32,212 bases of DNA, from the NCBI GenBank assembly GCA_903919075.1, contig CAIXGR010000094.1, forward strand, positions 1-32,212, read 5' to 3'. A model generated the notes under the pieces. That model saw only the letters and a list, made by a program, of their open reading frames with translations. It made no database searches and was not told the DNA's origin. This DNA comes from an uncultured Bacteroidota bacterium (lineage in GTDB: Bacteria > Bacteroidota > Bacteroidia > Chitinophagales > LD1). Positions 27,215 through 31,877 of this stretch are shown here, piece by piece. The position numbers and the translations under genes were made by a program. Positions within the stretch are counted from its first letter, which is position 1, and the number at the start of each line of letters is the position of its first letter.

Positions 27215-29365
27215 CTAAAATTCATTACCGGTAGCAACTTTCTTTTCTAATAACATCGGAACAGCAAATCGCTCGCCATAACTTGCCTGCAATTCTTTCG
27301 CTCTTGCAATAAACTCTTTCAATCCATAATCATTAATATACTGCAATGTGCCCCCTTTAAAAGGCGCAAAACCCCAACCGAAAATAGCGCCTATATTGGC
27401 ATCGGGTATGTTGCGCAATACTCCTTCTTCGAGGCAACGGACTGTTTCAATGGCTTGGATAAACATTAGCCGGTCAATTAAATGTTTTTGTGGCGGTTGA
27501 GTTTTTTCGGGGAAGTTTTGTTTTAGGCCAGTCCATAAATGCTTTTTCTTTTCATCCTTCACATATTCATAAAAGCCTGCACCGGCGGCTTTGCCAGGGC
27601 GCTTTAATTCGTTTAGCATTTTATCGGCAACAATGTATGCAGGATGCTCGGGAGGAGTTTTCCCTTCGGCTTTTAAATCGGCAATAGTTTGTTGGCGTAT
27701 ATGCCATAAAAGCGAAAGACTTATTTCATCGGTTAGCACCAAGGGGCCTACCGGCATACCGGCTTGCAAACCTGCGGCTTCAATAGAGCGCGGATTGATA
27801 CCTTCGCCTAACATGGCTATGCCTTCCAGCACATAGGTGGCGAATACGCGCGAGGTGTAAAAGCCACGGCTATCGTTTACTACAATTGGCGTTTTCTTTA
27901 TCGCTTTCACAAAGTCAAAAGCACGAGCGAGGGTTTCATTACTGGTTTGTTTGCCAACAATAATTTCAACCAAAGGCATTCTATCGGCCGGTGAAAAAAA
28001 ATGGAGGCCAATGAAATTATTCGGTCTCATCGATTTTTCTGCCAAACCTGTGATAGGTAATGTGGATGTATTGGAAGCAAAAATAGTGGTGCCGGCTATT
28101 TGTTCTTCAGCTTCTTTTGTAACTTTTGCTTTTAGTTCGCGGTTTTCGAACACTGCTTCAATCATCAAATCGCAGCCTTTTAAATTTACAGCATTGCTGG
28201 TGGCTTGAATACGGTTTAATATTTCGGCGGCTTTTGTTTCATTTATTTTTCCTTTGCCCACTAATTTTTTCAGCAACTCTTCGCTGTATGATTTTCCATT
28301 CATAGCGGCTTCTTCGCTTACGTCTTTTAGCACACATTCCATACCATTTGATGCAATGCAATAAGCTATGGCGCTACCCATCATACCGGCGCCTATGACA
28401 CCAACCTTTTTAAATGCATGGCGCGGTAGTATTGCTTGCCCCTCGGATGAACCGGTTGGGCGGCTATTGCCTGCGTTGATTGCATTCAAATCAGTCCAGA
28501 AGGCTTTAATCATATTTTTAGCTACTTTACCGGTAGCCAGTTTTACAAAGTAGCGGCTTTCGATTCTTGTTGCGGTATCGAAATCAACTAAGGCGCCTTC
28601 AACAGCGGCGCTTAAAATGGCGAGGGGTGCAGGATAGTTGTTATGTGTTTTTTTAGTAACCACTGCCGGTGCCACCGGTAGCACTTGCGCTACTTTAGGG
28701 GTATTAGGTGTGCCACCGGGGATTTTGTAATTTTTATCATCCCATGCCTGAACTGCTGACGGATTAGCCAAAATCCATGCCTTTGCTTTTTCTATTAAAT
28801 CGTTTTTATCAATTACCAGTTCATGAATTAATCGATTTTTTAAGGCTTCGTCCGGTGGGATTTTTTTGCCTTCGGATAAATATGCCAACGCAGGCTGTAA
28901 GCCCAACATACGCACCATGCGGGTTACGCCGCCGCCGCCGGGTAACAGGCCGAGTGTTACTTCAGGTAGACCGAGTTGTGTTTTGGGATTATCAATTACA
29001 ATACGGCGGTGACAGGCGAGAGCAACCTCAAAGCCACCACCCAATGCTGTTCCGTTAATGGCAGCAACAACCGGCTTGCCTTGTGTTTCGAGATAACGCA
29101 GGCCTGCTTTGAATTGCTGCGCTCTATCAAAAAGATTTTGCGGATTTTTTTCGTTGAACATTTCATCAATATCGGCACCGGCCATAAAACTTTCTTTTGC
29201 CGAAGTGATAATAATTCCAATGATGGAATCTTTTTCGGCTTGCAGTTTTTCGATGATATTTTTAAAAGCTTCACCAAATGCAATATTGATAACGTTGACC
29301 GGTTTGCCGGGGTTATCGAAGGTTAGGGTTACTATTCCCTGCTGGTCTTTTTGATAGTTGATCAT
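27215..29365 (-). CDS. Beta-oxidation multifunctional protein: enoyl-CoA hydratase/3-hydroxyacyl-CoA dehydrogenase
   Basis: A 716-residue fusion of the FadB/FadJ alpha-subunit type. Crotonase domain at about 1-200 with catalytic glutamates Glu113 (GGGFEVALA) and Glu135 (LPEVTLGLLPGGGG), and oxyanion segment AGADIDEM. The NAD-binding dehydrogenase domain follows from about 317 (VGVIGAGMMGSA, nucleotide motif 325-330), with the catalytic LHFFSP histidine and two C-terminal 3HCDH domains. It catalyses hydration of trans-2-enoyl-CoA and oxidation of L-3-hydroxyacyl-CoA. The frame extends 12 codons upstream to 29401, but that part overlaps a dispersed repeat and is not conserved, so ATG 29365 was chosen. 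The thiolase gene is upstream on the same strand, forming the usual alpha/beta pair. FadB and FadJ cannot be told apart here. Confidence 0.92.
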   Translation of the reverse strand: MINYQKDQQGIVTLTFDNPGKPVNVINIAFGEAFKNIIEKLQAEKDSIIGIIITSAKESFMAGADIDEMFNEKNPQNLFDRAQQFKAGLRYLETQGKPVVAAINGTALGGGFEVALACHRRIVIDNPKTQLGLPEVTLGLLPGGGGVTRMVRMLGLQPALAYLSEGKKIPPDEALKNRLIHELVIDKNDLIEKAKAWILANPSAVQAWDDKNYKIPGGTPNTPKVAQVLPVAPAVVTKKTHNNYPAPLAILSAAVEGALVDFDTATRIESRYFVKLATGKVAKNMIKAFWTDLNAINAGNSRPTGSSEGQAILPRHAFKKVGVIGAGMMGSAIAYCIASNGMECVLKDVSEEAAMNGKSYSEELLKKLVGKGKINETKAAEILNRIQATSNAVNLKGCDLMIEAVFENRELKAKVTKEAEEQIAGTTIFASNTSTLPITGLAEKSMRPNNFIGLHFFSPADRMPLVEIIVGKQTSNETLARAFDFVKAIKKTPIVVNDSRGFYTSRVFATYVLEGIAMLGEGINPRSIEAAGLQAGMPVGPLVLTDEISLSLLWHIRQQTIADLKAEGKTPPEHPAYIVADKMLNELKRPGKAAGAGFYEYVKDEKKKHLWTGLKQNFPEKTQPPQKHLIDRLMFIQAIETVRCLEEGVLRNIPDANIGAIFGWGFAPFKGGTLQYINDYGLKEFIARAKELQASYGERFAVPMLLEKKVATGNEF

Positions 29366-29398
29366 GTTTCTTTCTTTAATTAGTCTAATTGCTTCCCG

Positions 29399-29434
29399 CA
29401 CCCTCTGACTCCATAAAGGGAGAACCGGCCCCCC
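29399..29434. repeat. Dispersed 36-bp intergenic repeat, copy 1
   Basis: Begins CACCCTCTGACTCC and contains AGAACCGGC. It matches a second copy at 30783-30818 at 32 of 36 positions. It sits between the thiolase and the multifunctional-protein genes. The CTCC/GGAG-type core is partly self-complementary, like the short intergenic repeats scattered in many Bacteroidota genomes. Confidence 0.75.
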
Positions 29435-29450
29435 TATAAATACAAAAAAA

Positions 29451-30659
29451 CTATATCCTTTCTATAATAGTGGCTACGCCCATTCCACCGCCTACGCAGA
29501 GTGTAATTAGGCCGGTAGATTTGTTGGTTCTTTCTAATTCATCTAACACAGTGCCCAATAACATTGAACCGGTGGCACCAAGCGGGTGACCCATGGCAAT
29601 GGCACCCCCATTTACATTTAGTGCTTCGCTATCGATATCCAACTCGCGTTGAAACTTGAGGACGGCGGAGGCGAAGGCCTCGTTCATTTCCCAGATATCA
29701 ATATCTTTTTTGCTCATACCTGCTACGCTCAACGCTTTACGGGCTGCAAACGAGGGACCGGTGAGCATAATGGTGGGTTCGGATGAGGTAACTGCGCCTG
29801 CTACAATGCGGGCGCGTGGTTTAAGGCCAAGCTTATCCCCCATTTCTTTAGAGCCAACCAAAGTAAGCGATGCGCCATCAACAATGCCCGATGAATTGCC
29901 CGGTGTGTGAACGTGATTGATTTGTTCAACTGAAGTATACTTTAGCATGGCTACAGCGTCGAAACCTAATTCGCCTGATGTGGCAAATGAGGGTTGCAGC
30001 TTTGACATGCTTTCAATTGAAGCATCTTCGCGAATGGTTTCGTCATGGTCTAAAATCATTAAACCGTTTTGGTCGGTAACGGGTATAATTGATTTTTTGA
30101 AGTAGCCATTTTTTCGCGCCAATGCCGCGCGCTTGTGTGATTGCAAAGCGTACTGGTCAACAGTTTCGCGGGTAAAGCCTTCGATGGTGGCAATAAGATC
30201 GGCTGAGATGCCCTGAGGAATAAAACCAAGCGCTGAATTAACGGCAGGGTCTAAATACCAAGCACCGCCATCGCTGCCCATGGGGTTACGACTCATGCTT
30301 TCAATTCCACCGGCTACTACTAATTGCTCCCAGCCGCTGCGGATTTTCATGGCAGCCAGGTTTACGGTTTCAAGTCCTGAAGAGCAAAAGCGATTGATTT
30401 GCATACCGGGTACTACTTCATCCCATCCGGCATACACATGTCCAAATTTTGCTATATCTCCGCCCTGCTCGCCAATGGGTGTTACACAGCCTAATACTAC
30501 ATCATCAACCTGTGTAGTATCAAACATGCCTGCACGTTGGCGAAGTGCTGTAAATAATTGCGCCAGTAAATCAATGGGTTTTACCTCATAAAGCGAACCG
30601 GTTTTCTTACCACGCCCGCGTGGGGTTCTTATTGAATCGTATATGTAAGCTTCCTTCAT
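29451..30659 (-). CDS. Acetyl-CoA C-acyltransferase (thiolase, FadA/FadI type)
   Basis: A 402-residue thiolase. The nucleophile Cys92 lies in NRFCSSGLE, the general-base pair is His358 in [11 protein letters not shown] and Cys388 in LCVGGGMG; all three positions are intact and the length is typical. It removes acetyl-CoA from 3-ketoacyl-CoA in the last step of beta-oxidation. It is the first gene of a two-gene minus-strand operon with the hydratase/dehydrogenase, separated by 85 bp that contains a dispersed repeat. A promoter element lies about 32 bp upstream. An Lrp/AsnC-family regulator gene is located 377 bp upstream on the same strand. Confidence 0.92.
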
Positions 30660-31035: not shown

Positions 31036-31515
31036 TTATTTTTGAGTTGTTAGATGGACCGTAACCGGGCGATTGAAGCTTTCGGCGAGGGATATGAAAG
31101 TTTCGGTGCGGCTGATGCCTTCTATTTTTTGAATTTTATCATGAAGAATAGTACGCAAATGTTCTGTATCGCGACATATAATTTTTAAAAATAATGAGTA
31201 ATTGCCTGTGGTGTAATTGCATGAAATAACCTCATCGATTTTTTTTAGCGCATTTACCACCTTGTCATACAAATCGCTACGCACCAGATACACGCCTACA
31301 AAGGAGGTAATATCCATACCGAGTTTTGTAAGGTCTATTTGCAGTTGCGGATTTTTTACTATGCCCAGTTTTTCCATTTTGTTCATACGTACATGGACTG
31401 TGCCGGGTGATATGAAGAGCTTTTTGCCTATTTCGGTATAAGGAGTAAAGGCGTTATCCATCAGAATATTCAGAATCTGCAAATCGGTGTTATCAATTTC
31501 GTAATGGAAGGCCAT
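31036..31515 (-). CDS. Lrp/AsnC family transcriptional regulator
   Basis: A 159-residue regulator. N-terminal winged helix-turn-helix at about 8-60 (DNTDLQILNILMDNAFTPYTEIGKKLFISPGTVHVRMNKMEKLGIV, written here as the recognisable pattern DLQIL...YTEIGKKL...GTVHVRMNKM). C-terminal RAM/AsnC domain at about 70-150 (VGVYLVRSDLYDKVVNAL, TGNYSLFLKIICRD, IEGISRTETFISLAES). The family forms octameric or dodecameric discs that bind amino acids or other small metabolites and act as feast/famine regulators, usually autoregulated and often acting on a divergent neighbour. Here the promoter region carries two palindromes, and the divergent neighbour is a tRNA-like RNA. The beta-oxidation operon on the same strand is another candidate target. 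Confidence 0.92.
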   Translation of the reverse strand: MAFHYEIDNTDLQILNILMDNAFTPYTEIGKKLFISPGTVHVRMNKMEKLGIVKNPQLQIDLTKLGMDITSFVGVYLVRSDLYDKVVNALKKIDEVISCNYTTGNYSLFLKIICRDTEHLRTILHDKIQKIEGISRTETFISLAESFNRPVTVHLTTQK

Positions 31516-31585: not shown

Positions 31586-31604
31586 CAAATAATTAAATTA
31601 TTTG
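31586..31604. promoter_or_regulatory. Perfect 19-bp palindrome between divergent promoters
   Basis: CAAATAATT-A-AATTATTTG has 9-bp perfect arms. It lies just upstream of the Lrp -33 element and its right end forms the -33 TTTG of the rightward promoter. Its place suits an operator controlling both transcripts, with the Lrp/AsnC protein the obvious candidate. Confidence 0.55.
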
Positions 31605-31632
31605 CCAAAAATAAGACCTTATATTATCTTTG
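31601..31632 (+). promoter_or_regulatory. Promoter of the tRNA-like RNA gene
   Basis: TTTG (31601-31604), 20-nt spacer, TATCTTTG (31625-31632): a complete Bacteroidota -33/-7 promoter. Transcription would start near 31640, about 15 nt before the 5' end of the cloverleaf. Confidence 0.7.
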
Positions 31633-31655
31633 TCGTATAGTTCTTTATAAAACAT

Positions 31656-31804
31656 TGTTGGGTGATGGAAATTGGCAGACATGCCCCCCTGTCTCGGGGG
31701 TAAGGAATTTGGGATAAATCTGCTGTATTTTCTTCGACTGTTAAAGTCGAAAGAAATACAGCTTGACTAACTACCTTATGCAGGTTCGAGACCTGCCTCA
31801 ACAG
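31656..31804 (+). ncRNA. tRNA-like RNA with class II cloverleaf and giant variable arm
   Basis: The region folds as a tRNA. Acceptor TGTTGGG (31656-31662) pairs with CTCAACA (31797-31803) with one G-U; U8 G9; a Leu-type D arm ATG-G-AAATTGGCAG-A-CAT (31665-31682) with G18G19; anticodon stem CCCCC/GGGGG (31684-31688, 31696-31700) around loop CTGTCTC; T arm GCAGG-TTCGAGA-CCTGC (31780-31796). The anticodon triplet reads GUC, nominally Asp, which does not suit a class II tRNA, and position 37 is U instead of a purine. The discriminator is G. The variable region is 79 nt (31701-31779): TAAGG/CCTTA at its base, and an 18-position hairpin (31722-31739 with 31745-31762, one C-A mismatch and one G-U). 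CCA is not encoded. It may be a functional unusual tRNA, a tRNA mimic or a decayed tRNA; stem conservation plus promoter and terminator argue against decay. Confidence 0.7.
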
Positions 31805-31848
31805 CTATGGTTTAGTATTTATTATCAAGTATTTAGAATTAAAACAAG

Positions 31849-31877
31849 AAGTCCGCAGAGCGGACTTTTTTTATTTT
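31849..31877 (+). terminator. Rho-independent terminator of the tRNA-like RNA
   Basis: AAGTCCGC (31849-31856), loop AGA, GCGGACTT (31860-31867), followed by a T-rich tail. It closes a transcription unit of about 230 nt that begins at the 31601-31632 promoter. Confidence 0.9.

Follow-up and report, generated by a model that had tools for sequence, protein, structure and literature searches.

Close to the 3' end of a 32,212-nucleotide stretch of DNA from an uncultured Bacteroidota bacterium (contig CAIXGR010000094.1, positions 1 to 32,212, assembly GCA_903919075.1), called the window here, lies a sequence that can be folded like a tRNA with a very long variable arm. This raises the question of whether such an RNA is genuine or the remnant of a tRNA and, if genuine, of what it could do. 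An earlier note, made from the letters alone, had claimed a class II tRNA-like RNA with a 79-nt variable arm, its own promoter and terminator, and a mismatched set of identity elements. The features concerned are the following.

31036..31515, reverse strand: divergent gene of a Lrp/AsnC-family regulator, 159 aa (Pfam; the best NCBIfam match is an AsnC model, below its cut-off)
31601..31632, forward strand: putative promoter, TTTG (31601-31604) and TATCTTTG (31625-31632), 20 nt apart (sequence reading)
31640..31648, forward strand: leader element GTTCTTTAT (by reading)
31656..31804, forward strand: tRNA-like RNA, positions 1 to 73, with G73 at 31804 and a C at 31805 (sequence; covariance match of 109 bits)
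31656-31662 and 31797-31803, forward strand: acceptor stem TGTTGGG/CTCAACA, 7 pairs, one of them G-U (read directly)
31684..31700, forward strand: anticodon arm CCCCC-CTGTCTC-GGGGG (sequence)
31701..31779, forward strand: variable arm, 79 nt (covariation)
31702-31705 and 31774-31777, forward strand: basal stem of the variable arm, AAGG/CCTT (covariation)
31710-31712 and 31771-31773, forward strand: second stem of the variable arm (covariation)
Within 31701..31779, forward strand: internal loop of the variable arm, GATAAA/CTAA (covariation)
About 31722-31762, forward strand: imperfect apical hairpin of the variable arm (shuffle test in genus members)
31780..31796, forward strand: T arm GCAGG-TTCGAGA-CCTGC (100% of cells paired over the family)
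31846..31870, forward strand: intrinsic terminator-like hairpin with a T run (terminator scan)

The full cloverleaf can be read directly in the window copy, which has a Leu-like D arm, U33 and a U as base 37, and whose folding energy is better than that of 200 out of 200 shuffled sequences (z -4.3). When the genus was searched at the DNA level, 15 of 18 genomes, the window's own among them, proved to hold a complete copy, so that the tRNA-like fold is not due to chance; in a 16th genome the match was confined to the terminator. These results confirm the class II tRNA-like RNA with its 79-nt variable arm. None of the listed ORFs of at least 80 aa overlaps 31656-31804. Two further ideas, that the fold might contain an alternative GGCA/TGCC hairpin and that the loop region resembles an anti-Shine-Dalgarno sequence, were dropped by reading, because other families change those bases.

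Upstream, the pair formed by TTTG and TATCTTTG fits the Bacteroidota promoter type, for which the sigma-70 scan used on this region is ill-suited. Similar elements are seen by eye in most genus relatives. The leader element resembles an rRNA boxA, and its GTTCT is present, by reading, in genus relatives. The terminator scan gave 2 sites versus 0.3 expected, both corresponding to one hairpin, read on either strand. Promoter elements of the Bacteroidota type ahead of the RNA and a terminator-like hairpin behind it thus agree with the promoter and terminator initially claimed.

Annotation tools overlook this gene. ARAGORN finds neither a tRNA nor a tmRNA in the window, leaving 31656-31804 uncalled, and calls no gene in 32 of the loci of the pattern-found relatives described below. 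Rfam 15, including the tRNA model RF00005, gives at the gathering cut-off 0 matches for the window and 0 in the loci of 10 relatives, and a lax threshold yields only sub-threshold, unrelated matches on the window. Blastn searches of plasmid and phage GenBank collections returned nothing matching the window copy. No conserved reading frame comparable to a tmRNA tag was seen, by reading, in the variable arm. No paper on this RNA family was recognised among the titles and abstract openings of the open-licence papers searched, and the relevant passages of PMC7609411, PMC7590224 and PMC3399842 do not describe it. As judged from sequence comparisons, the RNA at 31656-31804 is a real, conserved and so far unannotated tRNA-like RNA, whose function we can only infer.

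Relatives occur in many Bacteroidota. An anticodon-arm pattern of 24 letters with three ambiguous positions, run on the named genome collection, returned 44 stretches (46 copies) with record titles naming Bacteroidota groups, among them Algoriphagus, Cyclobacterium, Portibacter, Siphonobacter, Spirosoma, Sporocytophaga, Persicobacter, Saprospiraceae and Chitinophagales. Of 48 parsed sites, 47 are complete and all 47 have 7/7 acceptor and 5/5 T-stem pairs, in a count for which the script took the best-pairing placement. In a scan of the phylum with the covariance model R1, members scored 86 to 115 bits and the next match 63. Carriers at 86 bits or above amount to 30 of 296 Bacteroidota genomes, namely 13 of the 16 from the same order (own included), 15 from elsewhere in the class and 2 from outside it; families f5, f6, f7, f8 and f12 gave nothing at this level. 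Two further genomes, G108 and G089, hold relatives below 86 bits (a partially aligned copy and a short-arm relative, respectively). Three matches below 86 bits were read individually: L170 (63.3 bits) is a short-arm relative, L171 (57.1 bits) a true copy with a partial alignment and L172 (62.0 bits) an ordinary tRNA-Leu; the others, among the matches listed, are about 82-88 nt long and were taken as tRNAs for that reason. In another sample of the class, which overlaps the 296-genome sample, 26 of 149 genomes matched at 1e-15, one of them with only 72.5 bits. The tRNA-like gene is also found in tandem, with 2, 3 or 11 copies; the 11 copies belong to Persicobacter sp. CCB-QB2 (L058:5194-7032) and have a spacing of about 172 nt.

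The structure is maintained by compensatory changes. A MAFFT alignment of 32 diverse copies, from which the top of the arm was removed, has 96.8% of the cells of a 29-pair structure paired, and 89 two-sided changes versus 29 in shuffles. The alignment of 123 matches (116 distinct rows) has 97.0% of cells paired and two-sided changes in 23 of the 29 pairs, with 441 such changes, where shuffles give 126.5 and slid partners 21-46; being fitted to the model, it leans towards the structure, and the separate MAFFT alignment agrees with it. Covarying stems include the acceptor, D, anticodon and T stems as well as the variable arm. The conserved GG of the D loop and TTCGA of the T loop, joined to these covarying arms, are those of a tRNA fold. 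The covariance search suggested by the earlier note has thus revealed relatives across Bacteroidota genomes with covarying stems. The ARAGORN run that it also suggested gave no tRNA call.

Within the variable arm, the basal stem, the second stem and an AUAAA/CUAA-like internal loop form a covarying core shared across families, and the top is variable, with GGGUUGACCAC or GGGAUUGACCAC in 36 of 114 copies. In 13 of the 15 genus members the apical hairpin beats 100/100 shuffles; in the other two (L008 and L011) it does not, since 11 and 10 of the 100 shuffles fold as well. The variable region measures 38 to 118 nt, with the sole exception of a 76-nt relative from family f10 (L170:339-414, reverse strand), which has only 7 nt there, carries the loop CTATCTC and G73, and is followed by a terminator-like hairpin. 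The long arm is therefore not essential to the core of the RNA. By reading, an extra hairpin can be drawn in the 5' bulge of the arm in Algoriphagus, Cyclobacterium and a relative (L021, L023, L038, L084).

The family is also carried by phages. A 28-letter pattern retrieved 27 IMG/VR contigs, all matching R1 at 76 bits or above, with several identical copies; since an A at position 37 could not match this pattern, the phage copies are uninformative on that base. A variable-arm pattern gave 10 viral stretches, of which the 8 new ones are known by this pattern alone. ARAGORN predicts tRNA genes in five of the 27 phage stretches (15 in L128, 3 in L144, 6 in L149, 3 in L151, and a tRNA-Ser plus a tmRNA in L146) and none in the other 22. 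Eight of 10 proteins taken from 7 contigs match PHROG terminase, portal, polymerase, helicase, ligase or exonuclease families, in 6 contigs, a terminase or portal being present in L131 and L134. No gene is common to all phage contigs, the widest protein family covering 12 of 35.

Aspartyl-tRNA synthetase (AspRS) reads G34, U35, C36, C38, G73 and G2-C71, and that of E. coli also reads G10; good decoding requires U33 and a purine 37. Bases were counted on 114 distinct host copies, identical ones being merged and L041 (cut off) and L171 (local match) excluded; the shortened loop of L320 leaves its positions 32-36 empty, which lowers the denominators there by one. U1-A72, G2-C71, G73 followed by C, and C38 are present in 114/114 copies, the third pair is U-A in 112, U35 and C36 are found in 113/113 and G34 in 111/113. 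By contrast with these fixed bases, U33 is replaced in 14/113 (G in 6, A in 6, C in 2) and base 37 is a pyrimidine in 106/114 (T 97, C 9, G 8, A 0), unlike the loop of an elongator tRNA. As 44 of the copies were picked by a pattern fixing U33, G34, U35, C36 and C38, though not base 37, the count was repeated on the other 70, where some lean from the search remains because the model was trained on pattern-picked copies. In these 70, G34 is found in 67/69, U35 and C36 in 69/69, and C38, G73, the next C and G2-C71 in 70/70; U33 is lost in 14/69, and base 37 is T in 59, G in 6, C in 5 and A in none. In family f10, two copies carry C34 or A34 instead. The shortened loop of L320:1501-1646 (forward strand, 72.5 bits) sits in an otherwise intact fold.

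As controls, U33 and a purine 37 occur in 29/29 distinct ordinary tRNAs of the window's own genome, and each of them in 27 of 28 phage tRNAs. The ordinary tRNA-Asp of this genome, with G73 and the loop CTGTCAC, differs from the window loop CTGTCTC at base 37 only. Three tRNA-Leu of the same genome carry A73, unlike the family with its invariant G73, which goes together with a long variable arm in 113 of 114 copies, L170 being the exception. Position 10 is mostly A or U, not the G10 read by E. coli AspRS. The identity set had been described as mismatched. This holds for the D arm and the long arm only, which are Leu/Ser-like; G73, G34, U35, C36 and C38 jointly form the aspartate set, and the whole is better read, on sequence grounds, as a Leu-like body bearing an Asp-like set. 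Since the bases read by AspRS are kept and those needed for decoding are not, we infer a substrate of AspRS that is not a normal codon reader; with an anticodon loop that looks unfit for ordinary codon reading, the RNA probably has a different job. A tRNA mimic or special-purpose tRNA seems probable. Of the roles first proposed, that of a missense tRNA is unlikely, given the lack of conservation of U33 and of a purine 37.

A recurrent neighbour is the regulator gene. Among 46 loci (48 minus L047 and L054), 27 have a Lrp/AsnC-type gene divergently upstream of the RNA, 49-78% identical to that of the window; it is the nearest ORF in 26 loci and the second in L086, and three loci (L026, L036, L061) have no upstream ORF in the sequence stretch. 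These genes come from 28 neighbour ORFs chosen by size and orientation, of which that of L058, non-homologous, was dropped. In the reverse search, made beside Lrp homologues at 18 loci of 15 genomes, model matches appeared in 2, both known carriers included as controls. The second upstream neighbour has a SufB/D core domain in 7/46 loci. Downstream genes are mixed, AMP-binding ligases being the commonest (8/57), so the idea of a conserved neighbour enzyme was abandoned; no charged-tRNA enzyme stood out as a recurrent neighbour among downstream and second upstream genes. In the same way, no link was found with MprF-type lipid aminoacylation (PF09924), present in 1/26 carriers versus 4/26 other genomes. 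One of these other genomes, G089, has the short-arm relative and lacks a PF09924 match. In the window, 27215-30659 (reverse strand) holds ordinary fatty-acid oxidation genes, for an enoyl-CoA hydratase/3-hydroxyacyl-CoA dehydrogenase and a thiolase.

The reading that we prefer, tentatively and with somewhat less than even confidence, is that of an RNA processed like a tRNA and charged, most likely with aspartate, whose charged form is used outside normal decoding. The RNA would be excised by the 5' and 3' processing enzymes of tRNAs, CCA would be added to its 3' end, and AspRS would most likely charge it with aspartate. The charged form, or the ratio of uncharged to charged RNA, could then serve outside codon reading as an amino-acid donor or a signal of amino-acid status; the long variable arm would be an added handle, and the divergent Lrp/AsnC-type gene probably controls the RNA in many hosts. 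Against this reading stand the G10 that is mostly absent, the C34 or A34 of the f10 copies, the short loop of L320 and the fact that no charged-tRNA enzyme stood out beside the RNA. Phage carriage fits a translation-linked role as well as that of a donor. A broader proposal, somewhat unlikely as a whole, would be that of a widespread class of charged non-decoding tRNAs, coupled to Lrp/AsnC regulators, whose arm gives specificity for an aminoacyl-tRNA-dependent process or an amino-acid-status signal in Bacteroidota and which phages have copied for infection.

The RNA could instead be an uncharged regulatory mimic, a stable fold that would bind either a tRNA-binding protein (AspRS, a modification enzyme or a ribosome factor) or, by way of its GUCNC loop, a target RNA, and so tune translation or amino-acid genes. 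The unkept decoding bases, the Lrp/AsnC neighbour, a loop core able to pair with a target and the precedent of tRNA-Other from B. cereus (PMC3399842) are all consistent with it; the invariant U1-A72, G2-C71 and G73 followed by C rather suggest that the 3' end is used, and we consider such a mimic rather unlikely. A working but slow tRNA-Asp, which might decode GAC/GAU in stressed or infected cells, would explain why GUC is kept in 67/69 pattern-independent copies and why some phages carry the RNA beside ordinary tRNAs. Ordinary decoding by an Asp anticodon is nevertheless weakened by the losses of U33 (14/69) and the state of base 37 (A in 0/70), when the genome's own tRNAs keep both U33 and purine 37, and an ordinary tRNA-Asp already exists there, which makes this explanation improbable. 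Charging with serine for a non-ribosomal or recoding role has in its favour that SerRS reads a long variable arm plus G73 in tRNAs of the Ser and Sec types (PMC7609411). It seems still less probable, as G73 and the loop core are retained over arm lengths from 38 to 118 nt and down to 7 nt in L170, the conserved GUC and C38 would be needless for SerRS, and the D arm is Leu-like. Finally, a tRNA pseudogene, or a tRNA with a small insert to be removed from its variable arm, would be in keeping with the silence of ARAGORN and Rfam and with the one short-arm relative. This is very improbable: the RNA is conserved across families and beyond the class, tandem and phage copies exist, and covariation inside the arm itself, which has its own core, led us to reject both versions. 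Decay is thus already contradicted at the level of sequence, as the earlier note had supposed, whereas the removable insert that it had envisaged is unsupported.

Several known RNAs share part of these features. Like bacterial tRNA-Asp, the family has the loop CUGUC-N-C, G73 and G2-C71, from which it departs by its Leu-like D arm, its long arm, a base 37 that is never A in the host copies and a U33 that is not fixed. The non-proteinogenic tRNA-Gly of Staphylococcus is charged and has features that keep it from ordinary translation; its body and its host differ from those described here. As in class II tRNAs (tRNA-Leu, tRNA-Ser), allo-tRNAs and tRNA-Sec, there is a 7+5 cloverleaf with a long variable arm and a Leu-like D arm, but the internal-loop core of the arm, the Asp-like loop and the unkept U33 and purine 37 set it apart. 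Its acceptor branch is 7/5, against 9/3 in allo-tRNAs (PMC7590224) and 13 bp in tRNA-Sec. B. cereus tRNA-Other, according to PMC3399842, is described from Bacilli as part of a longer RNA, is proposed to act outside translation, is poorly charged in vitro and is off polysomes. Both are tRNA-like RNAs with a putative role outside translation; unlike tRNA-Other, the present RNA has a giant variable arm, occurs in phages too, and belongs to a family with covarying stems found in many Bacteroidota.

If the RNA is indeed charged and used outside decoding, a tRNA-sized gene would have escaped annotation in much of a major bacterial phylum as well as in some phages. With the marks of a charged tRNA kept and those of a codon reader dropped, the spread of non-translational charged tRNAs would become directly testable. 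The family would also provide a natural tRNA scaffold carrying up to 118 nt in its variable arm.

Besides this family, phages carry a second kind of tRNA-like RNA, with near-fixed ends (AGTCAGGTGGCGGAAT ... CAGGTTCGAATCCTGTCCTGACT-A) and a hypervariable middle, often seemingly without a normal anticodon arm. Examples are L132:9980-10112 and L132:4588-4706 (reverse strand), L149:3170-3298, L146:39-153 and L151:5951-6099 (forward strand), and others lie in L184-L263. This kind was found in at least 120 viral stretches; in 80 loci, 98 of 112 sites have their two ends no more than 260 nt apart, the density reaches 7 sites in 5 kb (L196), and Rfam calls some of these sites tRNA. Another odd phage tRNA may be L151:5575-5660 (forward strand), called tRNA-SeC (tca) by ARAGORN and endowed with a Leu-like D arm.
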